In this document: positions 16,307-38,990 of the stretch, one piece after another
Layout of the letters: every line of letters starts with the position of its first letter
Numbering within the stretch: the first letter of the stretch is position 1
Source: a virus
Length of the DNA stretch: 64,000 nucleotides
IMG/VR virus record: IMGVR_UViG_3300049491_001102
Location: 1-64,000 of that record
Strand: one strand, 5' to 3'
The notes under the pieces: model-generated
Told to the model about the DNA's origin: nothing
The model's input: only the letters and a program-made list of their open reading frames with translations
Database searches by the model: none
Position numbers and translations under genes: made by a program

Positions 16307-17472
16307 CACAGCACCCCTTTCACGCATTCAAGCACAAATTCTCTAACCTCTTCGCGTGTGACCTCAGGCGGAATTGGAGCTTTGTCGATGTAGCTCCGCA
16401 AAACATCGATTCGCGATGCTGGTTGGGTGGCCGCACGAATCGTCGTCGTCGCGTTCTCCCGCACCACTTCCGCTTGCACGGTCACTTCGCCCGCACGCAC
16501 CCACGAACGCTTCACCATCAAATCGAGAATGCCGCGCGCCGTTTCCTGTTCATCCGGACGCACTTTTGCCGCAACATAAAGCGGTGCGCAATGGTCCAGT
16601 ATTGAGTACGGAACATTCTCGCCTTCATGCGATAGGTCCCAAAGCAACTCCTCCAATTTTGCGAAATCCACGGTGAGCCACCGCGGTCCGGGAATCTCCA
16701 CAAAATGGAACGAATTAGTTGCGGTATCCCACTCGGCCAAGCTGCCGAACCCGGCTAACCCACCGTCGCTAAATCGCACGGGTGCCAACGTGCCAACCTG
16801 CACAACATGCCGTTGCACCGAATCCGTCCACGACCACCGCCGCTGACAATGCCAGTTGCCGGCGACAACACACCGAACATCGTACTTCGCCATCAACCGT
16901 TGGAGTGTGCCGATCGAAACCGAATCGTTGGCACCGTCGAGGTAGTATGGGGTTTGCGTGTCCGAGACCCCCAAGTGAATCATCATCGCCTTGATGCCCA
17001 CAACACCAGCCCCGGCCACACCAGCGTCGAGCATCGCCGATTCCAACCAATCCTCAGCACGGCCGGGTCGGAATGGAATCGAGAAGAGTCGTGCAGATGT
17101 GGGGCCAACTCCAAGATTGGAATGCCCTGGCTTCTCGTGGACGATCGCTACATTTTTGAGCGGCGACAAAGCGTTGTGGTTTAGTTCGCCTGAAGTTTGA
17201 TCGTGATTTCCAACGATGAACTCCCATTGAAGTCTACTATTCAGGATTAAATCCTGCATCGCTGTTTCAATCGCGGGTTCAACCCGATCGTAGTCGAAGA
17301 CATCGCCGGCAACGCAAATGTGCTCGCATCCGTCTTTGCGCGCCCGCTCAACTGCGCGCTGAATTGTGGCGAGCGTATCCCGGCAACGCACATTTAGCCC
17401 GTACACCAAGGGGCCATCCCCAAAGCGAGCATGGTTGCCCACATGGGGATCCGTAAAAAATGCAACCCTCAC
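16306..17472 (-). CDS. SbcD/gp47-like recombination nuclease subunit
   Basis: A 388-residue calcineurin-like metallophosphatase. FTDPHVG (residues 6-12), AGDVFD (near 55) and VGNHDQ (near 87) are the metal-binding motifs, with a later GNWHC motif. It pairs with the adjacent SbcC-like ATPase as an exo/endonuclease complex acting on DNA ends and hairpins. The start is GTG, overlapping the recA stop (GTGA), and its own stop overlaps the sbcC ATG, so recA, sbcD and sbcC are translationally linked. Confidence 0.9.
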
Positions 17473-18692
17473 GCCTCACCTCGCGAGCGCCGTCGCTTTT
17501 GTGCGGGCGCCTCCGATACCTCGCTGGATTCTTCTTGTGGCAAGGGTTCAACGGGTGGGGCAACCGCGGGAACTGACGGGGCAATAAATGCAGCCACCAT
17601 GTCAGCCATGTCCGTTGGCGCACCTGCCCGCGCTGCGCTGCGCTCTCGGGGTGGCGCATCGGGAATCACATCTTCACTCTTTGCCACGATATCCGTGGTC
17701 GCCAGCTTGGCCCGCACTGCCACTTCCAATTGTCCCTGCAATACAGGGTCAGCTTTCAATGCAGCCACAAAGTTCGGCTTGCCGTGAAAGCGGGCAGTAC
17801 CAAATGCGAACCAAGCTCCCGCCTTACCAATGAGTCCGGATTCGACTCCTAACTCGAAACACTCCGCTGCGCGGCAAACCCCAGATCCATAAACAAGATC
17901 GTACTCAGCCTCGCGGAAGGGAGGAGCGACCTTGTTTTTGACGACTTTAACCTTGGTGCGCGACCCCGTTGGGTCCGAATCATCGCCCGCACCCTTAACT
18001 TTTCCAATTCGCCGCACGTCCAATCGGACAGACGCATAAAACTTCAGTGCATTTCCGCCAGTTGTTGTCTCTGGGCTGCCAAACATCACACCAATTTTCA
18101 TGCGAATCTGATTGATGAAGATCAACAATGCCTTCTTTTGACTCACGGGGCCCGTAAGCATCCGCATCGTTTGACTCATCATCCGCGCCTGCAGACCAAC
18201 ATGAGAATCCCCAATATCACCTTCGAGCTCAGCTTTTGGGACCAATGCAGCCACGGAGTCGACCACGATAACTTTGACCTCGCCGGAGTCGATGAGTTTT
18301 TTAACAATGTCGAGGGCTTGCTCCCCGTTGTCCGGTTGCGACAGGATGAGGTTATCCGTGTCCACACCCAGATTTCTGGCATATCGGACATCAAGTGCAT
18401 GTTCTGCGTCAATGAACGCGCACGTGTAACCCTGCGCTTGTGCATCCGCTAACGCTTGCAGACACAAAGTTGTCTTGCCTGACGACTCCGGCCCAAAAAC
18501 TTCGACGATACGACCCATCGGCAAGCCGCCAACCCCGATCGCTGCGTCTACGCCGATTGACCCCGTGGACACCACGTCGAGATTGGCGACGGGTGGCCTG
18601 TCCTTCAACTTGGCGATCGTGCCTATGCCGTACTCTTTGTTGATGGCTGCAAGAATTGCGACCAAACCTGGACTTGTTGCTGTTTGCTTCAT
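17469..18692 (-). CDS. recA: RecA recombinase
   Basis: A 407-residue protein with full bacterial-type RecA features: Walker [10 protein letters not shown] (residues 67-75), FIDAEHALD, Walker [14 protein letters not shown], and LLIFINQIR. Unlike T4 UvsX it looks like cellular RecA. The last 80 residues form a Pro-rich linker and a basic end ([11 protein letters not shown]). It would drive strand exchange for recombination-dependent replication and repair. The start codon lies only 10 bases after a GC-rich hairpin, with the GGAGG ribosome site on the far side of that hairpin. Confidence 0.95.
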
Positions 18693-25387: not shown

Positions 25388-25682
25388 CTTCCAACTCCAC
25401 TCCGTTAAACCTGAACCATTGTGTGCGAGTAATCGGACGCGCCTTTAGCAAGAAAAGCTTTGATGCAACAAGAGACCCATTCTTAGGTGGGTAATACGGG
25501 TTCAAGTCATAGTTTATGTGCACAGTTATTAATGCTACGGGCGCAGCATTAATGCACAAATTCTCGACTTTAGAAATAAGATCGTCCTGATTGAGTAGCG
25601 GTACGTGAGGACTAATGTTGAGCACTTTCATTCGACCGTAAAGATTAACGACGATTAGGTCGAGTTGCATCTCTGTAATCAT
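25311..25682 (-). CDS. hypothetical protein between helicase and primase
   Basis: A 123-residue protein. The ATG at 25682 (MITEMQLDLIVVNLYGRM) has a GGGAGGA ribosome site and overlaps the helicase stop (ATGA). Residues 1-90 look like a small alpha/beta domain with a DxNPYYPPK loop. The acidic C-terminus overlaps the start of the primase gene by 77 bases in another frame. Not recognised. A primase-helicase accessory role is only positional. Confidence 0.7.
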   Translation of the reverse strand: MITEMQLDLIVVNLYGRMKVLNISPHVPLLNQDDLISKVENLCINAAPVALITVHINYDLNPYYPPKNGSLVASKLFLLKARPITRTQWFRFNGVELEDGLEDDQSDSAGNCPNTESGVVGLG

Positions 25683-27028
25683 GGAGTCCTCCCTGGTAGT
25701 TGAATAACACTTGGAGCGTTGAATCCTGGAACAGGAGAGTGCATTTGTGGCGCACCCATGCCCGTACACGATGTCAGTCGGCCGAACTGCTGCTCGGTCA
25801 CAACGGGCCCGACAGTTCCCTCTTGACCAGATCGATTTTTGGCAACGTTGAAATAAAAACCCTTCGGAGTCTTGTTCAGCGTTATCCACTGCTGTGAAAG
25901 CCTTGGCTTCCATGCAGACTGACAAAAGTGTGACTTGTCGTAGAACTGCGCAGTTCCCTTATCTTTAGCCTGGGAACCTACCGCGATGACACAATCCTCT
26001 TCCTCAGCGAGAGCGACCATTTCCTCCCACACTTGTTTGTATAGGTCTGTGTTGGCCATATTTTTTAGGACTTGCTCAATCGTGAGTTTATCCCCGTAGT
26101 CTATACTCAGCACACTAACAGGTCGTCCGGTCTGCTGCTTCACTTCCTTGACCCAGAGGCGAATATCACCAACGGTGCATTTACCCTCAAGAAGATACTT
26201 GAGGAACAGTTTACCGTTTGGAACCTTCGCCTGGCGTTGTGCAAAGCGTTTACGGGCCTCGAAATCGTTTCCTTCCACGATTTCGAGGTAGGGAATGTCC
26301 GTCATGTCCCCAAACATGCGGGCGCCCAACTCGGGGATCGGCATTTCGTTGGAGGCATAGAGCGCAATCTCGTCGCGCATCACCGCCCGAATGACGAGTT
26401 GGCTCAAAATCATCGACTTGCCATCGCCGGCCGAACCCAAAAATGTCGTCACCGTGCGCTTGGGCAGACCGCCGCGCAAGAAAGCGTCCAGCTCGGAGCA
26501 ACCCGTGGCAATCCGCGAAGTCGATCGCAATGCGGCGATCTTGGCAAACATCGACGCGTCGAGTTGCTCCCCAACACCAGCGACCAAGATCCCAACTTTG
26601 TCCAACCGCGAAAGCTGTTCAATGACTTTTTGCCGACTTTCACCCTTAAGCGCGGACTCAATCCCCTTTAGCTTGATGCGTGGCTCCATTATCGTTTTGA
26701 ATTGCTCAAGAACGATTTCTGGCTTACGCCGCGGATCATCCATCGTATTCGCAACGTACTCCGAGTACGCGTACGCTTGGTCAATGGTGATTTTCCCGGC
26801 CTGCTTGCACAGAGTGAGAATTTCTTGCCTTATCGCACTGAAAGTTTCGAAAGCTTGGCTTGTACGGTCAAAGTATAGCTTGCAAAGTCCGATGACAAAA
26901 ACAGCTTCTGGAGAGACGAACGCCTCAATCTCGATTACTTTGTCAAGAGTGGCAAAAATGTTCTTGGAAAAGACGCAGTGGTAGACGACTTCGCGCTCGA
27001 ATAGCGCGTCAATGACGTACTTATCCAT
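25679..27028 (-). CDS. replicative DnaB-like helicase
   Basis: A 449-residue RecA-fold helicase. Walker A GSAGDGKSM lies near residue 198, Walker B VLSIDYGDK near 306, and a VGSQAKDKG segment follows as in DnaB-type enzymes. The N-terminal 150 residues are helical, like the DnaB N-domain. It unwinds the fork with the primase encoded downstream. The start at 27028 lies 3 bases after the upstream stop. The C-terminal 30 residues are Pro-rich. Confidence 0.85.
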   Translation of the reverse strand: MDKYVIDALFEREVVYHCVFSKNIFATLDKVIEIEAFVSPEAVFVIGLCKLYFDRTSQAFETFSAIRQEILTLCKQAGKITIDQAYAYSEYVANTMDDPRRKPEIVLEQFKTIMEPRIKLKGIESALKGESRQKVIEQLSRLDKVGILVAGVGEQLDASMFAKIAALRSTSRIATGCSELDAFLRGGLPKRTVTTFLGSAGDGKSMILSQLVIRAVMRDEIALYASNEMPIPELGARMFGDMTDIPYLEIVEGNDFEARKRFAQRQAKVPNGKLFLKYLLEGKCTVGDIRLWVKEVKQQTGRPVSVLSIDYGDKLTIEQVLKNMANTDLYKQVWEEMVALAEEEDCVIAVGSQAKDKGTAQFYDKSHFCQSAWKPRLSQQWITLNKTPKGFYFNVAKNRSGQEGTVGPVVTEQQFGRLTSCTGMGAPQMHSPVPGFNAPSVIQLPGRTP

Positions 27029-27031
27029 GAA

Positions 27032-27871
27032 TCAACCCCACCCCCAACGCCCTTTGCGGATCAAGTCTTCGCGCTGCAAACGATCCGCGTGCCAAGCTCT
27101 TTGAATCGCGTTCACACGCTCCGCGCAATCTTGTGGTGTTTTGGGTAGGACTTTTTTCGCTGCTAAGTCTTCCAGATACAAAATAACACGCTCCGCAAGG
27201 TCCTCGTCCACCGCAACGCCTTGTCGTTGCTCTTCGATGACGCTCTCGATGAGCTTCTCGCGGATAGTCGTCCACATGTATAACCAAACGTCATATTCCT
27301 CGGGCGCGTACGATGAACGACAGAACTGGTGAGCGTAACGATTGGCCTCGTTAATTTGCCAATCTTCTATTACAGGCGGAAAAACGTTCAACAACTTGAT
27401 GTCCCGGAATTTGAACTTCTTGTTTGCATGGTCGACGAGATACGACACGCGAACACGTGCCCACTCGTGCGGCGAGATGCCCTTCTCAGCGAGAAGATCA
27501 AATCGCTCTGCTAACACACTGATTTCAGCCATGGTAATCGTCGTGGGTGACGACCACTTTCCTGATTCAGCTTCGAGTGCGGCCGTATACGCGTTGATAA
27601 GTAAACCGGCTTTTTCTTGCTTGGTAGCGTGAATGCTCAATCGCGGAAACTTTGGGCCTTCAAAAGGCTTGTCGAAGAATGCATACGGACCCCTTGGGTA
27701 CAACTTCCCGATTAAGTCGGTGGCCAAAGCTTTGCGCTGTTCATGAAGCTCACCCAGACGCTTCTGCCGCTCTTTCGCTTCAGGTGACATCTTCTCCCCC
27801 GAAAGCAAATCAGCAAAGGACAAGTTCCTCAGCTCTTCGTCCGTATAAAATGTTTCCTCTTCCGTCGGCAT
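27032..27871 (-). CDS. nested C-terminal product, putative helicase-loader-like protein
   Basis: An internal ATG at 27871 (MPTEEETFYTDEELRNL) with a GGAG ribosome site opens a 279-residue protein in the same frame as the long gene. It lies 16 bases after the TATTAAA of a class-2 promoter and downstream of an intrinsic terminator, so it should be the main product of that promoter. It is helical, with an Arg/Lys-rich end (DRLQREDLIRKGRWGWG). Location just before the helicase suggests a loader; no ATPase motif is visible. Confidence 0.55.
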   Translation of the reverse strand: MPTEEETFYTDEELRNLSFADLLSGEKMSPEAKERQKRLGELHEQRKALATDLIGKLYPRGPYAFFDKPFEGPKFPRLSIHATKQEKAGLLINAYTAALEAESGKWSSPTTITMAEISVLAERFDLLAEKGISPHEWARVRVSYLVDHANKKFKFRDIKLLNVFPPVIEDWQINEANRYAHQFCRSSYAPEEYDVWLYMWTTIREKLIESVIEEQRQGVAVDEDLAERVILYLEDLAAKKVLPKTPQDCAERVNAIQRAWHADRLQREDLIRKGRWGWG

Positions 27872-28849
27872 TGGCTCCGCGTGTGTATTTAATAGTTGGT
27901 CGACGGAAAAGTTATCCGCAGAGTTTTGCGCGACTCCTTGCGGTGATTCCTCGGATTGATCGGGCGGGAGTTCTGAACTTGGCGCAGAAATCTCGGCGAG
28001 GAGTTCTGGTTTTCTGCCCTCTTCGCAAGAAGAGAAAAAAAACGACGGGGCCGGCGAAGCTGGGCCCGTCGTTTCTTCTTCTTCAGAAGAAGAAACACAA
28101 CCATACAACCATACAACCACACTACACGAATTTAGAACGCCGTTCTGAGCGTGATTTTGAAAGCGTACACCCCCATAGCTCAAAACGGGGGGTGAAAGGA
28201 CAGGTGAAAGGACAGGTGAAAGGACAGGTGAAAGGACAGGGTGAAGTTGGGGGGTGAAGTTGGTGTCCACTTCACCGGATCGGCGAAGCTCTTTCACCCG
28301 GCGACGACGAGCGGACCTTGCGTCGTTTTCTGCGGCGGAGTTCTCCCGCCCAAGTGACCATGCACTGACTTGTTGCCCGACGTTTCGCTCGATCGCCAAA
28401 TAGAGCTCCTGAGGAATTAGAACTCTGTCATCCCCTTGTACTTCACCAAAAACACGACGAACGGTTGTCTTCGTCTTAGAAGACGATGCACCGATGTCTA
28501 CAACAAGACCTAATAAACGAAGAGCATTAAGATAGTAGAAGACATTTCTACGTGTCATCGGTTTATCCACACGATCCCGTGTCTTCTCCTCTTTTTGTAC
28601 CTTCTCGTCACGGTCTCGATGTCGTTGCAACCAAAAGGGAAACTTCGCACAAAGGGTGTCGACGCTGTATTGGATGAAGCCCGCGTTATCCCGGGCTTTT
28701 AGCAAGCAGCGCCACAAAACATTCAGATTGCTGCCGATGTAATCGGAGACGCGCCGCGGCGAAATTGCCACCAGGTCCACCCCTTTGGGTGACCAGTTTC
28801 GTGTCAAAATTTCGTTGCCGTAAGCACCAGGGAACGCTAAACTATTCAC
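27032..28849 (-). CDS. winged-helix replication protein, long frame
   Basis: A 605-codon frame upstream of the helicase, probably a replication initiator or helicase loader. The first 170 residues hold a winged-helix-like domain (RRVSDYIGSNLNVLWRCLL; MTRRNVFYYLNALRLLGLVV; TTVRRVFGEVQGD) related to the C-terminus of the 141-residue protein at 29301. A poorly ordered stretch follows, with four VLSP repeats and Glu/Ser/Phe runs; it coincides with an intrinsic terminator and an internal promoter, so the C-terminal part is probably also made separately. GTG 28849 (AAAGAAAG upstream) is my choice of start; a TTG at 28930 lies in a hairpin and is less likely. Confidence 0.65.
   Translation of the reverse strand: MNSLAFPGAYGNEILTRNWSPKGVDLVAISPRRVSDYIGSNLNVLWRCLLKARDNAGFIQYSVDTLCAKFPFWLQRHRDRDEKVQKEEKTRDRVDKPMTRRNVFYYLNALRLLGLVVDIGASSSKTKTTVRRVFGEVQGDDRVLIPQELYLAIERNVGQQVSAWSLGRENSAAENDARSARRRRVKELRRSGEVDTNFTPQLHPVLSPVLSPVLSPVLSPPVLSYGGVRFQNHAQNGVLNSCSVVVWLYGCVSSSEEEETTGPASPAPSFFFSSCEEGRKPELLAEISAPSSELPPDQSEESPQGVAQNSADNFSVDQLLNTHAEPMPTEEETFYTDEELRNLSFADLLSGEKMSPEAKERQKRLGELHEQRKALATDLIGKLYPRGPYAFFDKPFEGPKFPRLSIHATKQEKAGLLINAYTAALEAESGKWSSPTTITMAEISVLAERFDLLAEKGISPHEWARVRVSYLVDHANKKFKFRDIKLLNVFPPVIEDWQINEANRYAHQFCRSSYAPEEYDVWLYMWTTIREKLIESVIEEQRQGVAVDEDLAERVILYLEDLAAKKVLPKTPQDCAERVNAIQRAWHADRLQREDLIRKGRWGWG
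27888..27913 (-). promoter_or_regulatory. class-2 promoter inside a reading frame
   Basis: Minus strand AACTTT (27913-27908), 11 bases, ACTATTAAA (27896-27888). Exact match to the consensus, pointing at the internal ATG at 27871 and the helicase operon. Confidence 0.65.
28035..28074 (-). terminator. intrinsic terminator inside a reading frame
   Basis: On the minus strand AAACGACGGG pairs with CCCGTCGTTT around a GC-rich loop and is followed by eight T. It is encoded in frame as TTGPASPAPSFFF. It would end transcripts from the upstream winged-helix part before the internal promoter at 27888. Confidence 0.65.
28071..28096. repeat. perfect 12-bp inverted repeat next to the terminator
   Basis: GTTTCTTCTTCT and AGAAGAAGAAAC flank TC. 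It adjoins the terminator at 28035-28074 and may act as an anti-terminator or competing fold. Confidence 0.55.
28191..28238. repeat. four tandem 12-bp repeats
   Basis: GGTGAAAGGACA is repeated four times without change. On the minus strand it encodes a PVLS/VLSP tetrapeptide repeat. Simple expansion or a protein-binding iteron are both possible. Confidence 0.8.
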
Positions 28850-29300: not shown

Positions 29301-29726
29301 TTACGCGAGGTCGAGACGGGCGGCCGCGCCCTGGGGGATCCAGACCGTGTTGCCGGTGACTGCCCCATAAACCCGGCGAACGGTGGCATGCGAACGAAAC
29401 CCAGGTCGAAGGACTCGCGTCAAGCCGAGGTCGTCAACCGCGTGGATGTAGTCGCGCGTTACCCGGTCGGTCACCTGGGTCGTGATGCGGATCCCATCGA
29501 CACCGCCACGCGAGAACCATCGGGGGATCGCAGCGCGGAATTGGAGGTTGGACCAGGCCAGTTCACCATGGTCATCGCGAAGATCGAGCATTCGCAGCCA
29601 AAGCACAATGAGGGCTCTCTTCGTGTTCCGTTGGAGTTTTCGGCGACTCTCGACGACCATTTCAATCGATTCGTCTGGCCATTTTTGAAACGGGATAACA
29701 CTGTTGCTAGCGACTTCAATTTTCAT
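29301..29726 (-). CDS. winged-helix protein
   Basis: A 141-residue protein starting MKIEVASNSVIPF at 29726 behind a GAGGGAA ribosome site. The C-terminal half (DRVTRDYIHAVDDLGLTRVL, then HATVRRVYGAVTGNTVWIPQ) aligns with the winged-helix part of the 27032-28849 product (MTRRNVFYYLNALRLLGLVV; TTVRRVFGEVQGD; IPQ), so the two genes share a duplicated DNA-binding module. The N-terminal part is helical. Probably an initiator-like or regulatory DNA-binding protein. Confidence 0.7.
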   Translation of the reverse strand: MKIEVASNSVIPFQKWPDESIEMVVESRRKLQRNTKRALIVLWLRMLDLRDDHGELAWSNLQFRAAIPRWFSRGGVDGIRITTQVTDRVTRDYIHAVDDLGLTRVLRPGFRSHATVRRVYGAVTGNTVWIPQGAAARLDLA

Positions 29727-30869: not shown

Positions 30870-32375
30870 TCACGTTGTTGGTAGCGGAATCACGAGTTGG
30901 GTCCCCTGTCCCGTGGGTGCGGCCGCGCTTAGGACTTTTACGTCGTAACCCATCGAACGATAGGCTGCGACACGCTGATCCGAATAATCCTGCAACCACT
31001 TCAACTCCTTTTGGGTGTTCTTGCGGTTGGTCAACGGATTGATGTGCGGCACGGCAACGTCGTAAAACTCGACCACATCGACGGTACCTTTGACGATGTT
31101 GCCGGCAGGATCGCGAATCATTCGCATTCCACGACCCACGAGTTGCAGCGTTTCGATGGTGCTCGCGTTGCCGCGCGCATTCACGACAGTCGCGATTTCC
31201 TCAATGTCGGTGCCGGTCTGCAGCACTTTGGTGGCGACGATGACCTCCGTGGTCAAATCGCGAAGTCGGGCAATCATCGCGTCTTGTTGTTTTTGGGTCA
31301 TGCCCGACCCGCGCATGAACTCCGCTCGAACCCCCATGGCCTTGAGCAACTTCAAGATAGCGAGGCCATGCCCCGCCGTGCGGACGCCAACCAATGCCGG
31401 CTTTCCGGCGGCAGCCGTGAGCTCAGCAATCTTCACGTTGCGCTTGGAGTTCTTGACGATGTTCACCGAATAAACGACCAACGGATTGGCCTTGGGCGCG
31501 ATCGTGTGCTCGACCGGGTGGAATACGACCTTGGGCATAGCGACGTAGCCTTCCGCGATGAGGTCTTCCGCCGGCTTGTAGTAGATGACACGCCCCACAA
31601 GCCCCGTCGCCAACATGTCCCGTCGGTCCCCGCGATCGAGTGCGGTACCAGACATGCCAAAACGCCAATAGGCATTGGTCACATGCTCTGCTACATGGAC
31701 GAAATCGTCGGCGCTCGCCGAATGGAATTCGTCGATGATGAAACCGGTGAATTCGCCTAAAAACTTGCAGGCTTCTTTGTAGTCGGCCTTGAGCCGCTGC
31801 GACAAAGTTTGGAACGTCGCGGTGGTGAACGTGTCGCCAATCGACCATTCGCCGTCGCCGATTCGACCTGCGACATCGCCGGTACGAAGTTCGTAGCGAT
31901 CGGCCGCTTGGTACATCAGCCGGGTTTCTGGTGCGAGAAACAGCCATTTCACCCCTTGAATGGCGCGCGTTAACCCGATCGCACACTCGGTTTTTCCTGC
32001 GCCGGTAACGAGCCGCATGACACCACGCGTCCGCTCGGCACACGTCCAAACCGCCTCTTGCTGGTAATCGCGAAGCCAACCAAGGTCGGCCGACCTGTCG
32101 ACCCAACCGTGCCGCACGCGATGATCTTCAACGGAAATAGAAAACCCACGCTTTTCGCCTTGAACCACCACAAGCGAAGCCAACCCCGTCGGGAAGGACT
32201 TCGACGATTGGTTGAACATGTGGCGCAACGTGTTGAAATCATACTTCAACACGCCGTCCACCATCTTGTACGCATTCGTCGTGTCCTTGAATGCGCAAAA
32301 GTTGATCAGCCAATCCATCTCTTCTTGCGAATCGAAGTCCACAAACGTGTGATGGTTTTCAAGACAAAGCCTCAT
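30870..32375 (-). CDS. UvsW-like superfamily 2 DNA helicase
   Basis: A 501-residue SF2 helicase. Start MRLCLENHHTFVDFD at 32375 overlaps the upstream stop (ATGA). Walker A VTGAGKTE lies near residue 122, motif II DEFH near 213, motif III MSGTALD near 245, and motifs V and VI at TGTDIEEIATVVNARG and QLVGRGMRM. The N-terminal 100 residues are an extra domain, as in T4 UvsW, which unwinds R-loops and branched DNA to switch from origin- to recombination-dependent replication. The location after a sigma-like gene fits such a switch. Confidence 0.85.
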   Translation of the reverse strand: MRLCLENHHTFVDFDSQEEMDWLINFCAFKDTTNAYKMVDGVLKYDFNTLRHMFNQSSKSFPTGLASLVVVQGEKRGFSISVEDHRVRHGWVDRSADLGWLRDYQQEAVWTCAERTRGVMRLVTGAGKTECAIGLTRAIQGVKWLFLAPETRLMYQAADRYELRTGDVAGRIGDGEWSIGDTFTTATFQTLSQRLKADYKEACKFLGEFTGFIIDEFHSASADDFVHVAEHVTNAYWRFGMSGTALDRGDRRDMLATGLVGRVIYYKPAEDLIAEGYVAMPKVVFHPVEHTIAPKANPLVVYSVNIVKNSKRNVKIAELTAAAGKPALVGVRTAGHGLAILKLLKAMGVRAEFMRGSGMTQKQQDAMIARLRDLTTEVIVATKVLQTGTDIEEIATVVNARGNASTIETLQLVGRGMRMIRDPAGNIVKGTVDVVEFYDVAVPHINPLTNRKNTQKELKWLQDYSDQRVAAYRSMGYDVKVLSAAAPTGQGTQLVIPLPTT

Positions 32376-32620
32376 AGCTCTAGCAACTTGGCCATTTCTG
32401 GCCCGAGATGGGTTTTGACTGAATCGTATTGAATGAAAATGGTTTGGCCGAGCTTTTCCGTTTTGACGTGGGCTTCCTCGACCCACTTGTAGATCGCAGA
32501 AGTGGACAACATCACCTTGTCCGCCACGTCCTGAACGGTCCAATACCCCTTCGCCCGCATCCGTGCGACGAGCTGCTCGCGTCGAGTTGCTGCCCGATGG
32601 GCGCGCACAGAATCCGTCAT
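32372..32620 (-). CDS. small helix-turn-helix protein
   Basis: An 82-residue protein. RAKGYWTVQDVADKVMLSTS followed by AIYKWVEEAHVKTEKLG is a MerR/excisionase-type HTH in which the recognition helix is followed by a short wing (GQTIFIQYD). Probably a DNA-binding regulator co-expressed with the sigma-like protein and the helicase. Both ends overlap neighbours by ATGA. Confidence 0.7.
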   Translation of the reverse strand: MTDSVRAHRAATRREQLVARMRAKGYWTVQDVADKVMLSTSAIYKWVEEAHVKTEKLGQTIFIQYDSVKTHLGPEMAKLLEL

Positions 32621-33198
32621 TGAAGCAACTCCTCACGAACCATCGTCAAAAATGTACGCCGGCAACTCCACAGATACCGACGGTTGTGCCCTTGTTGTGT
32701 GAGTTCATGGATGACATCTTTCCGCTCAACACCCATCATTTCTTCTCGGACAATCTGGGCTCCGATTGCACATTTCGGGTATTCACCAGCTAAACGTGCA
32801 ATGACGCGGTCTGCTGCCAACGATATTTCTTTCGTTAGGAAGGCGTCTTCGACGTTGTCCACCGTGGTGGTTGTAGGGTCCAGAACCTTAGTTTGTTCAT
32901 TCAAAGTGCAGTCCGCCCACTCATGTCGATTTTTGTAGATATTGACGTTTCGAATCGCCATAAGTTGGGTGTAGACCACTCGATACAGATACGTTTCTGG
33001 ATAATCCGGTGAAAATCCTTCTGCGAGCTTCATGAGCACCCGCATCCAACCGTGTTGGATAAGATCAGGCTCATCCACAAAGCTCAGCAACCACTCGTTC
33101 TTTCGGCGAAAACTATAGACAGCCTTGAGAATGCAAGATTCTACGGCCTCATGGCTTAGATAGACGTCTGTTCCTGAAATTCTGTATTGCGTACTCAT
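32617..33198 (-). CDS. RNA polymerase sigma-factor-like protein
   Basis: A 193-residue protein with the two conserved parts of a group 4 type sigma factor. Residues about 25-90 (FVDEPDLIQHGWMRVLMKLA, then YPETYLYRVVYTQLMAIRNV) match region 2, which binds core polymerase and the -10 element. The last 70 residues (ISLAADRVIARLAGEYPKCA, then MGVERKDVIHELTQQG, then RRTFLTMVREELL) fit region 4. It would redirect host RNA polymerase to phage promoters, as T4 gp55 does. The class-2 promoters are candidate targets. I see no anti-sigma gene. Confidence 0.7.
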   Translation of the reverse strand: MSTQYRISGTDVYLSHEAVESCILKAVYSFRRKNEWLLSFVDEPDLIQHGWMRVLMKLAEGFSPDYPETYLYRVVYTQLMAIRNVNIYKNRHEWADCTLNEQTKVLDPTTTTVDNVEDAFLTKEISLAADRVIARLAGEYPKCAIGAQIVREEMMGVERKDVIHELTQQGHNRRYLWSCRRTFLTMVREELLQ

Positions 33199-34865: not shown

Positions 34866-36122
34866 ATGGACAGTGAGATTCTCCGAGCCACTCTCTTGAC
34901 TCCAGGCCCTTTTGGACGTTGGGGCCTCCCCATCCTTAACTGGGGTCCTCCCGCTGTCGCTAAGACTGCGGAGGTCAACGCCGTTGCCGAGAATATCGGT
35001 TTGCGAGTCGAGACCCTCTTAGGGTCGACACGTCAAGTCGAGGACTTCCTCGGCAATCCCTACTTCCAAGACGTTCAAATCACTGATGGGCATGGACAAG
35101 TTCGTACAGTGAAAGCAACGTCTCATGCGATGCCTGATTGGGCTGTGCGGGCATTTGCTGACCCCTACACGTTGATTCACTTGGACGAGGTCTCGTTGAC
35201 TTCGCAGGAAACACAAAAGGGTTTGCTGCGCTTGGTTCATGAAGGTGTAACGGGCGAAACAGAACTCCCGAAGGTTACGCGTTTTATGGCCAGCGCCAAT
35301 CCAGCGTCAATGGCCAACGGAACATTCGACATGTCGCCGCCGCTTGTTGCTCGTTGGGGCCACGCCATGACCGGTGTGGACAGCCAACTGCAAAAAGTCG
35401 CACTCGATCAATCCTTCGTGCGGAACTGGGCGGATTGGGCGATGAGTTCTGGCGGTGATCGTCCTGCTGGATACGTGCCCGAACCACCAGACTCGCGGGC
35501 CGCCCGGGTCGAAGAAGCTCAGCAGTTCATCATGCAGACGTGGGATTCAGTCTACAAATCTGTACGTGTTGAAGTTTCGGCCTTTATGCTCTCTGCGGCC
35601 GGTGGTGTTGAAGCCTTGCACAACATGCCACCACCAGATGTAATTCGCCCTGGCGTCGCGTGGAATAACCCCAGAATGTGGGAATACGCCATGCGAGCGA
35701 TGGCATGTGCACAGATCCTCAATCTGACTGAAATGCAGCAACACATTTGGGCGGGCATGTTCGTCGGCGAAGGCATGATTGCCAAGTTCAATGCTTTCAA
35801 AAAGGACTTGAACTTACCAACACCGGAGGCATTCCTCACACGACAAGTGAGTTATTCGCACGACCCAATGAAGCTGGACCGCACAATGGCGCTTTTGCTG
35901 TCTTGCTCCAACCACATTTGCGACCCGCAGTGCACCCAAAGCCAAGTCAAGGAAGACACATTCTGGTCGTTCGTGGCAACGCTGGCAAACTCTTGCGGTG
36001 ATATTTGTGCGCCAGCAATCCGCCTGATGGTGAACAAGGGGAAAACGCACAATAAACAAGCAGCATCTGTTCTCGTTCAATTCGCAACGATGTTGCGCGC
36101 CGCCGGTGTTATGAAGATCTAA
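34866..36122 (+). CDS. MoxR-type AAA+ ATPase
   Basis: A 418-residue AAA+ protein. A modified Walker A, WGPPAVAKTAE (residues 27-37), Walker B LIHLDEVSLTS (near 102) and sensor 1 ASANPASM (near 140) fit MoxR/RavA-type ATPases, which remodel protein complexes together with a VWA-domain partner. Here the partner is encoded two genes on (37602-38990). The C-terminal 180 residues are helical with a few Cys. The ATG lies 6 bases after a class-2 TATTATA box and lacks a ribosome site. The phage role is unknown. Confidence 0.8.
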   Translation: MDSEILRATLLTPGPFGRWGLPILNWGPPAVAKTAEVNAVAENIGLRVETLLGSTRQVEDFLGNPYFQDVQITDGHGQVRTVKATSHAMPDWAVRAFADPYTLIHLDEVSLTSQETQKGLLRLVHEGVTGETELPKVTRFMASANPASMANGTFDMSPPLVARWGHAMTGVDSQLQKVALDQSFVRNWADWAMSSGGDRPAGYVPEPPDSRAARVEEAQQFIMQTWDSVYKSVRVEVSAFMLSAAGGVEALHNMPPPDVIRPGVAWNNPRMWEYAMRAMACAQILNLTEMQQHIWAGMFVGEGMIAKFNAFKKDLNLPTPEAFLTRQVSYSHDPMKLDRTMALLLSCSNHICDPQCTQSQVKEDTFWSFVATLANSCGDICAPAIRLMVNKGKTHNKQAASVLVQFATMLRAAGVMKI

Positions 36123-37570: not shown

Positions 37571-37596
37571 AACTTTATCCGTCCAACGCTATTAAA
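37571..37596 (+). promoter_or_regulatory. class-2 promoter
   Basis: AACTTT (37571-37576), 11 bases, GCTATTAAA (37588-37596). The second ATG (37602) is 5 bases after the box. Confidence 0.75.
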
Positions 37597-37601
37597 TGAC
37601 C

Positions 37602-38990
37602 ATGAACGTCCCAGCGTTAAACCTCACGGTCAGCGGGGTGATGGCTGCTGCCCGCTACAAGGCTTGCAGCATTGCTCCCTATTTTGCGGACGGCTTGCTC
37701 GCCTTGATCCCAATGCCATGCCCCGGTTTTGGGACGTTCGCGGTGTCCGAGCACGGACACCTCATTTACGATCCCGACGTGGTGCTGGCCTGGGGTGTCG
37801 ATGTGGTCTGCACGGTTTACCTCCACGAGTTGCAGCACGTCTTGCGCAACCATGCTCAGCGCGCGCGGTCGCAAGGAGTCAGCGCGGCAACGGCCGATGC
37901 TTGGGGACAAGCCGTGGACGCGGAGATCAACGACGACCTGGTCGCGATGAAGCTTCCATTTCCCGATGGTCGCTGCGTTTTGCCCAGCACGCTGTCCAAG
38001 ACCGCGCCTGATGGTCTCTCGGCCGAAGAATATTACCTGCTCCTGCCGATCGACAATCAAGGATGTCGGCAGCCAAACGGTAAGCCAGGCGTCAACGGTT
38101 CCGGCGGCACCGGCATTCCGCTGCCCCAAGAACCGGACACTTCCGGACCAAATGCTGTCCCGGGCCGAACCCCCGCGGACATGCAGCTCATCCGCAACCA
38201 GTGCGCGGACAAGCTGCAAAAAGCCAAAAATATGGGAAACAATGGGTCTATACCCGGTGGATTCCTGCGTTGGGCTGAAGAGGTATTGGCACCACCTCCT
38301 TACGACTGGAAACAGCACCTGGAAACACGGGCAAACAACGTTTGCGCGTTCGTGCGTGGCAAAAAGAGTCGCACCTACAGCCAGCAATCGCGACGCCAAG
38401 GCATCTATGGCTATGGCTCCGGTGTGCCCGTGGTCGCAGCTCGGCGCAGCCCCATCGTCACAAGTGCCATCATGCTCGATACGAGCGGGTCGATGGATGA
38501 CGACGACATCGCTATGGGTCTCGGCATCATCGGCAAAGTGCTGCAGCACTCCACCGATCGCACGATGTTCCTAAGCTGTGATGCGGCAGTCAACACGCTT
38601 GCGAATGTTCGGTCGCTTGCAGACGTCAAAAAACTAGTTGTCGGTGGTGGTGGTACGGATTTTCGCCCAGGCTTCGCCGCGCTTGCCAAAGATCCACCTG
38701 CGGTGCTCTTCGTGCTCACAGACGGTGATGGTCCAGCACCAGCGCTCAATCACCTCCACACCACAGAAATCGTATGGGTCCTCATCGGGGACCATGCCGT
38801 GATTCCATTCTGCGACAACGCTCGACGGTCCACTGTTCCCTACGGCGAAATCGTGTGGGCTTCCGACGAAGCCCGCAAACGCAATCGCGATGCCGAAGGC
38901 AATCGCAAACGAGTGCTCCCCGAAGTGGCCGACGATGGCGATGGCCAGGATGATGACGACGATGACGATAGTGCTAACGCTACCCCCTAA
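37602..38990 (+). CDS. VWA-domain metallopeptidase-like protein, MoxR partner
   Basis: A 462-residue protein. The N-terminal domain carries HELQHVLRNH (an HExxH zinc motif near residue 74), as in the putative metallopeptidase of DUF2201 proteins. The C-terminal VWA-like domain has the MIDAS start MLDTSGSMDD near 290. The end is a run of Asp. Such proteins are encoded next to MoxR ATPases and may cut or assemble target proteins under ATPase control. The ATG at 37602 is 5 bases after a class-2 promoter box; the earlier ATG at 37596 overlaps the box. Confidence 0.8.
   Translation: MNVPALNLTVSGVMAAARYKACSIAPYFADGLLALIPMPCPGFGTFAVSEHGHLIYDPDVVLAWGVDVVCTVYLHELQHVLRNHAQRARSQGVSAATADAWGQAVDAEINDDLVAMKLPFPDGRCVLPSTLSKTAPDGLSAEEYYLLLPIDNQGCRQPNGKPGVNGSGGTGIPLPQEPDTSGPNAVPGRTPADMQLIRNQCADKLQKAKNMGNNGSIPGGFLRWAEEVLAPPPYDWKQHLETRANNVCAFVRGKKSRTYSQQSRRQGIYGYGSGVPVVAARRSPIVTSAIMLDTSGSMDDDDIAMGLGIIGKVLQHSTDRTMFLSCDAAVNTLANVRSLADVKKLVVGGGGTDFRPGFAALAKDPPAVLFVLTDGDGPAPALNHLHTTEIVWVLIGDHAVIPFCDNARRSTVPYGEIVWASDEARKRNRDAEGNRKRVLPEVADDGDGQDDDDDDDSANATP

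Follow-up and report, generated by a model that had tools for sequence, protein, structure and literature searches.

A putative replication origin within the linker of an initiator-like gene in large uncultured phages

A predicted initiator gene among replication genes

A gene of 605 codons on the minus strand of an uncultured phage (27032..28849) probably encodes a replication initiator and, to judge from comparative sequence analysis, carries the DNA replication origin in the stretch coding for its own linker. The window (the whole stretch of DNA that was analysed) is the first 64 kb of an IMG/VR record of 111,463 bases. A sequence-only reading had noticed in this single open frame, in order on the minus strand, a 12-bp dyad, a terminator-like hairpin followed by eight T, a promoter, a GGAG ribosome site and an in-frame ATG (27871), and had suggested a nested gene. 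All of these elements are indeed in place. Their most likely main meaning, a replication origin inside an initiator gene, was missed, as were the tandem 12-bp repeats (28190-28263) that are central to the origin reading and had not been recognised as repeats of the DNA.

The frame runs from a GTG at 28849 to a stop at 27032. This start is backed by the alignment with an N-domain-only paralog of about 141 aa (29301..29726, minus strand; 27% identity, E = 7e-10), which matches the profile HMM of the N-domain (E = 2.7e-24) and is a row of the N alignment. The paralog might compete for the repeats described below or regulate the initiator. The 605-aa protein is made up of an N-terminal domain, a linker and a C-terminal domain, and both profile HMMs recognise it (N, E = 1.1e-26; C, E = 1.8e-37), the protein itself being a row in both alignments. 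It has no match in Pfam, PHROG or NCBIfam (the last of these run on the relatives only), and no relatives were retrieved when the single protein was searched against 50,697 phage records, against IMG/VR and against GTDB genomes. The family is thus undescribed in the libraries searched and known from metagenomes only.

The N-terminal part (28264..28849, minus strand) is predicted to be a winged-helix DNA-binding domain. Its AlphaFold2 model (mean pLDDT = 79.8) has the order helix-helix-helix-wing, and its Foldseek matches are weak (E = 0.05-0.5, none at E <= 0.001), mostly to MarR, Fur, PadR and ROK winged helices together with a few Orc/Cdc6 chains; one relative (L199) also matches HTH_36 below the cut-off (E = 0.0019). 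The model of the C-domain is all-helical (mean pLDDT = 81) and has no Foldseek match in the PDB, so that the helicase binding proposed below is deduced from gene position. Over the 192 codons of the linker between them, the coding frame has no stop, whereas the remaining five frames have 5, 8, 10, 8 and 1.

The minus-strand neighbours of the gene encode a RecA/UvsX-like recombinase, DNA polymerase I, a primase, a DnaB-like helicase and a second helicase (30870-32636, minus strand). The DnaB-like replicative helicase lies directly downstream (25679..27028, minus strand; PF03796, E = 6.5e-9; phrog_19, E = 8.6e-32), in a gene order also found in the relatives, and is presumed to be the partner of the initiator. 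GC and AT skews at fourfold sites show no switch at 28 kb that would mark an origin; a signal apparent there in third-position skew disappeared with fourfold sites and was dropped as evidence.

Some other features of the genome were observed along the way. The recombinase (17469-18692, minus strand) is close to cellular RecA (identity up to about 60%), and its best matches include RecA from records resembling bacterial contigs. On the plus strand, an AAA+ gene (34866-36122; weak AAA_5 match) followed by a DUF2201 metallopeptidase/VWA-like gene (37596-38990) recalls the CobS/CobT pair annotated near a sigma factor in Rhizobium phage RHph_N1_10. Past the window, near the end of the record (107168-109916, plus strand), about eight small paralogs of roughly 75-140 aa lie in tandem and share the pattern ...RLFxxxEEAxAExVR.... 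As for the host, a scan of bacterial genomes for the helicase yielded one match only, both short and weak, to a Verrucomicrobiaceae MAG, and thus provided no link to a host.

Conservation of the gene in relatives

Relatives were found by profile searches with DNA polymerase I and then with helicase alignments. L014 and L015, followed by some 25 distinct IMG/VR loci, have an ORF that ends right before the same helicase. These orthologs, about 25 in number, are very divergent but keep the same place upstream of the helicase, as well as synteny with the primase and polymerase I genes. They share the all-helical C-terminal domain, which ends in G(E/R)WxW. Most of them are a single frame composed of the winged-helix N-domain, often trailed by a GG-R-GAGRP motif, a repeat-rich linker of very variable length and the C-domain; according to the profile HMMs, about 20 loci have both domains in one frame. 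In about eight lineages the C-domain is the only gene seen (231-242 aa in most), within a view of about 3-6 kb upstream that leaves room for an N gene elsewhere. Relatives had also been proposed as a place to look for split genes, and one was found: in L187 (1965-3934), an ORF with the N-domain and iterons runs into the beginning of a second gene, which encodes the C-domain (AAATGATAG, an ATGA overlap). L012, whose polymerase I is 72% identical to that of this phage, is on a contig that ends short of the gene.

The coding frame is free of stops in 16 of the 16 fused linkers and the other frames carry many, which argues that the full-length protein is under selection and that no stop was lost by accident. 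Sequence comparison thus indicates that in most relatives the ancestral or selected form is the full-length protein. A recent loss of a stop codon between two genes was considered and rejected, as the fusion is widespread. The junction of two modules suggested by the sequence-only reading is therefore borne out by the stand-alone and split C-domains, whereas the accidental sharing of a frame is contradicted by the open linkers.

Among named, cultured phages with the most similar helicases, those inspected (hairong, nickie, BUCTxx99 and Mel-JY01) have no such gene annotated upstream in the regions covered. Among the relatives, PHROG gave two weak matches, to 'replication initiation O-like' (E = 0.031) and to 'replication initiation protein' (E = 0.018), each in one relative. 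In relatives (L121:5534-7933 and L112:2942-4846), the DnaB-like helicase and also the second helicase carry insertions of the Hint type (intein or homing endonuclease; Pfam Hom_end_hint, E = 4e-15 and 8e-12). The linker of L199 (2008-3975) includes additional sequence in which visual inspection suggests an HNH endonuclease (HIDH...N motif), a likeness that finds no Pfam support.

Iterons and a large palindrome in the linker DNA

The linker contains an iteron array (28190..28263, minus strand) made up of four perfect repeats, GGTGAAAGGACA, with a 12-bp period, and two related ones, GGGTGAAGTTGG (plus-strand spelling). The VLSP repeats of the protein are the translation of these DNA repeats. At up to one mismatch the linker holds five repeat copies, a number reached in 0 of 200 shuffles. 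The array is followed by three 8-bp-phased repeats (ACAACCAT; 28097..28125, minus strand) located between the iterons and the palindrome, in a stretch of 29 bp that is mildly AT-rich (59%).

A nested imperfect palindrome of 97 nt follows (28007..28103, minus strand). The fold of 28005-28105 (-45.8 kcal/mol, z = -5.5) was equalled by none of 200 shuffles. Since these positions form one palindrome, the 12-bp perfect dyad (28071-28096, with a 2-nt centre), the terminator-like hairpin and a third small dyad downstream are best regarded as a single structure, which has no match in Rfam. The hairpin with its T8 tail (TTTTTTTT; 28035..28077, minus strand) is the core of this palindrome. By sequence and by fold it is a GC-rich hairpin followed by a U-tract, as in an intrinsic terminator; its loop and bulge explain why a generic terminator scan missed it. 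Where such a terminator lies within a gene that is being translated, it would be expected to work chiefly when translation falls behind.

Similar features recur in the linkers of the relatives. Compared with dinucleotide shuffles, 11 of 18 linkers have an excess of direct repeats (p <= 0.04) and 15 have a hairpin stronger than expected (p <= 0.05), p-values that serve as guides, since the shuffles ignore codons and the loci are relatives of one another. The linker also holds the strongest hairpin of the gene in 15 of the 18 and, in most relatives, the 60-bp segment of lowest GC. Iterons usually come first, then the GC minimum, then the hairpin (L014, L168, L169, L173 and L194); the A+T-rich stretch after the iterons is clear in many relatives and mild in the window. 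The iterons themselves vary between phages, for example GAAATCAAAGGCACCCCC three times in L014, AATCAAGTCGCC four times plus two related copies in L173 and GCATTCAAGCGACC four times in L201, but have a common core, WTCAAR, which occurs 50 times in 20 linkers, whereas shuffles give 16.6 +- 3.9. The family comparison is weakest in that the iteron-like repeats of the window itself, which read TTTCACCTGTCC, do not have this core.

The relatives thus keep both the open frame and the hairpin; a linker conserved as protein but not as hairpin, which the sequence-only reading had named as evidence against its nested gene, is not what they present. Yet none of them has a run of T after the hairpin, the T-tail being unique to the window. 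The interpretation of the hairpin as a terminator consequently does not extend to the family: a structure kept after the iterons but never with a T-tail more likely has its conserved role in an origin (or in RNA).

An internal promoter and a candidate short product

The predicted internal promoter (AACTTTTCCGTCGACCAACTATTAA; 27889..27913, minus strand) is an exact member of the class AACTTT-N13-TATTAA, of which the 111-kb genome has five exact sites compared with none in 30 first-order random genomes. Nine sites are found at up to one mismatch, spelled AACTTT-N13-TATTA(A/T) or TATAAA: 885, 12623 and 27913 (minus strand) and 9687, 34834 and 37571 (plus strand) in the window, and 95445, 105519 and 105864 (minus strand) in the record. 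All of the eight others have the start codon of an ORF of at least 90 aa 11-41 nt downstream, and several are nearly leaderless, with an ATG 12-13 nt past TATTAA. These sites make the internal promoter credible as a member of a real promoter class of this phage. A search for the exact motif did not find it in the stretches taken from the relatives. A sigma-like ORF (32617-33198; Sigma70_r2, E = 0.13 only) may be the partner of this class.

The ATG at 27871 is 23 nt downstream of TATTAA, in frame, and preceded by GGAG-CCA, a ribosome site at the short spacing of 3 nt. Translation from it would give a candidate nested product of 279 aa (27032..27871, minus strand) consisting of the C-domain alone, as in the stand-alone C-domains of relatives. 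A second in-frame ATG at 27790 (252 aa) has GGGGGAG 3 nt upstream. Because the sites of the class all stand at ORF starts and this ATG is so near, the sequence is good evidence that a gene can begin at 27871, and it is plausible that a C-terminal product has a promoter of its own; the spacing of the ribosome site calls for caution, and the product is regarded as likely rather than certain. No internal start with a Shine-Dalgarno site recurs consistently among the fused relatives, and the short product may therefore be a peculiarity of this phage or not exist. On balance, the sequence tips slightly towards its being made from ATG 27871. The proposal that two products, one long and one short, are separately controlled is accordingly a fair reading as regards the promoter of the class ahead of the ATG, and a plausible one as regards the short protein.

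Proposed mechanism and alternative explanations

Several scenarios may explain this arrangement. Given that its parts and their order are those of phage lambda and that the promoter points away, the gene is read as that of an O-like initiator whose linker region holds the origin. The N-terminal winged helix would bind the iterons encoded in the DNA of its own linker; this binding, with the large palindrome just downstream, would lead to the opening of the origin, and the all-helical C-domain could recruit the phage's own DnaB-like helicase, whose gene is always next. Since the linker needs only to be flexible, it would tolerate non-coding signals in its DNA, which would explain the low-complexity peptide. 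Just past the palindrome and directed away from it, the internal promoter may produce another transcript, which would encode the C-domain by itself together with the helicase, primase and polymerase. It may also activate the origin through negative supercoiling, an effect that promoters downstream of the origin can have in lambda. A more speculative, and rather doubtful, extension is that the terminator and promoter at the origin act as a switch from the full-length initiator, used for origin-dependent starts, to the C-domain with the replisome, used for instance in recombination-dependent replication. If true, one frame would hold two stages of the replication programme.

The short product is less certain than the initiator and its origin. 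The origin could lie in the initiator linker while the promoter is used solely for the replisome genes further down or for the activation of the origin, no short protein being made. The 3-nt spacing of the ribosome site, the lack of a conserved internal start in fused relatives and the activation of the lambda origin by a downstream promoter directed away would all agree with this; nevertheless, the ATG is at a distance from the promoter typical of the class and C-domains do stand alone in relatives, which makes this alternative possible but not the one we favour. Another option does without the origin: two transcription units would share a frame by chance, the N gene ending at a true terminator and the C gene starting from the internal promoter. 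The T8 hairpin and the promoter of the class, placed back to back, would suit such a layout, as would the overlap in L187 and the C-domains found alone, but it seems improbable in view of the 16 open fused linkers and the missing T-tails of relatives, and it leaves the iterons and their shared core unexplained.

About equally improbable is a role of the repeats and hairpin at the RNA level, as an attenuator or a translation-coupled terminator that sets the dose of the initiator, again with no origin. The U-tract of the window fits it, and the hairpins of L014, L173, L179 and L183 are closed by CTTCGG loops, typical of stable RNA hairpins. Yet iterons with a spacing of roughly two turns and a family core, next to a DNA-binding domain, are better suited to DNA binding, and Rfam has no match. 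Finally, the linkers are biased sequences, and low-complexity coding DNA might mimic signals by chance; the shuffle statistics, in the window and across relatives, make this very improbable, as do for the window the fold of the palindrome, the exact promoter sites missing from random genomes and the stop-free linker frame. An origin in the linker of the initiator is thus the reading that we retain.

If correct, it provides large uncultured phages of a broad group, in which the start of replication was previously unannotated, with a predicted initiator and a predicted origin. The iteron sequence turns over fast around a fixed WTCAAR core and both domains persist, which makes the co-evolution of initiator and origin testable. 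The nested promoter likewise makes it testable whether initiators of two sizes are present at different times of infection.

Comparison with known replication systems

The closest parallel is phage lambda, whose origin lies in gene O, with iterons and an AT-rich stretch (PMC3349717), and is activated by a downstream promoter directed away from it (PMC5043065). As in lambda, the predicted initiator has its DNA-binding part (here also predicted) at the N-terminus and the iterons of the putative origin in its own gene; downstream is the gene of the helicase-recruiting partner in lambda and that of the helicase here. The lambda origin responds to transcription that starts at the promoters flanking it on both sides, and the present internal promoter points away from the palindrome. 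There are also differences: this phage encodes its own DnaB-like helicase, its gene contains a large T-tailed palindrome and an internal promoter, and its iterons are direct repeats, whereas those of lambda are themselves inverted repeats. No sequence match to the O family is above threshold (the best is the O-like PHROG hit of one relative mentioned above), so the protein is not filed as an O protein, although it is read as working like one. The lambda-style layout, with the origin in the linker of the initiator, would then recur in a family without detectable similarity to O.

Plasmid pIGRK offers a parallel for the two products, as its RepR and RepR' are a full-length and an N-truncated initiator from one frame (PMC6854812). 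There the short RepR' is obtained through an internal start codon, whereas the phage has a predicted promoter ahead of its candidate internal ATG. The origins of iteron plasmids, similarly, have an array of replicon-specific direct repeats adjoining the initiator gene; in the phage, by contrast, the iterons are inside the coding frame, in the linker of the protein.
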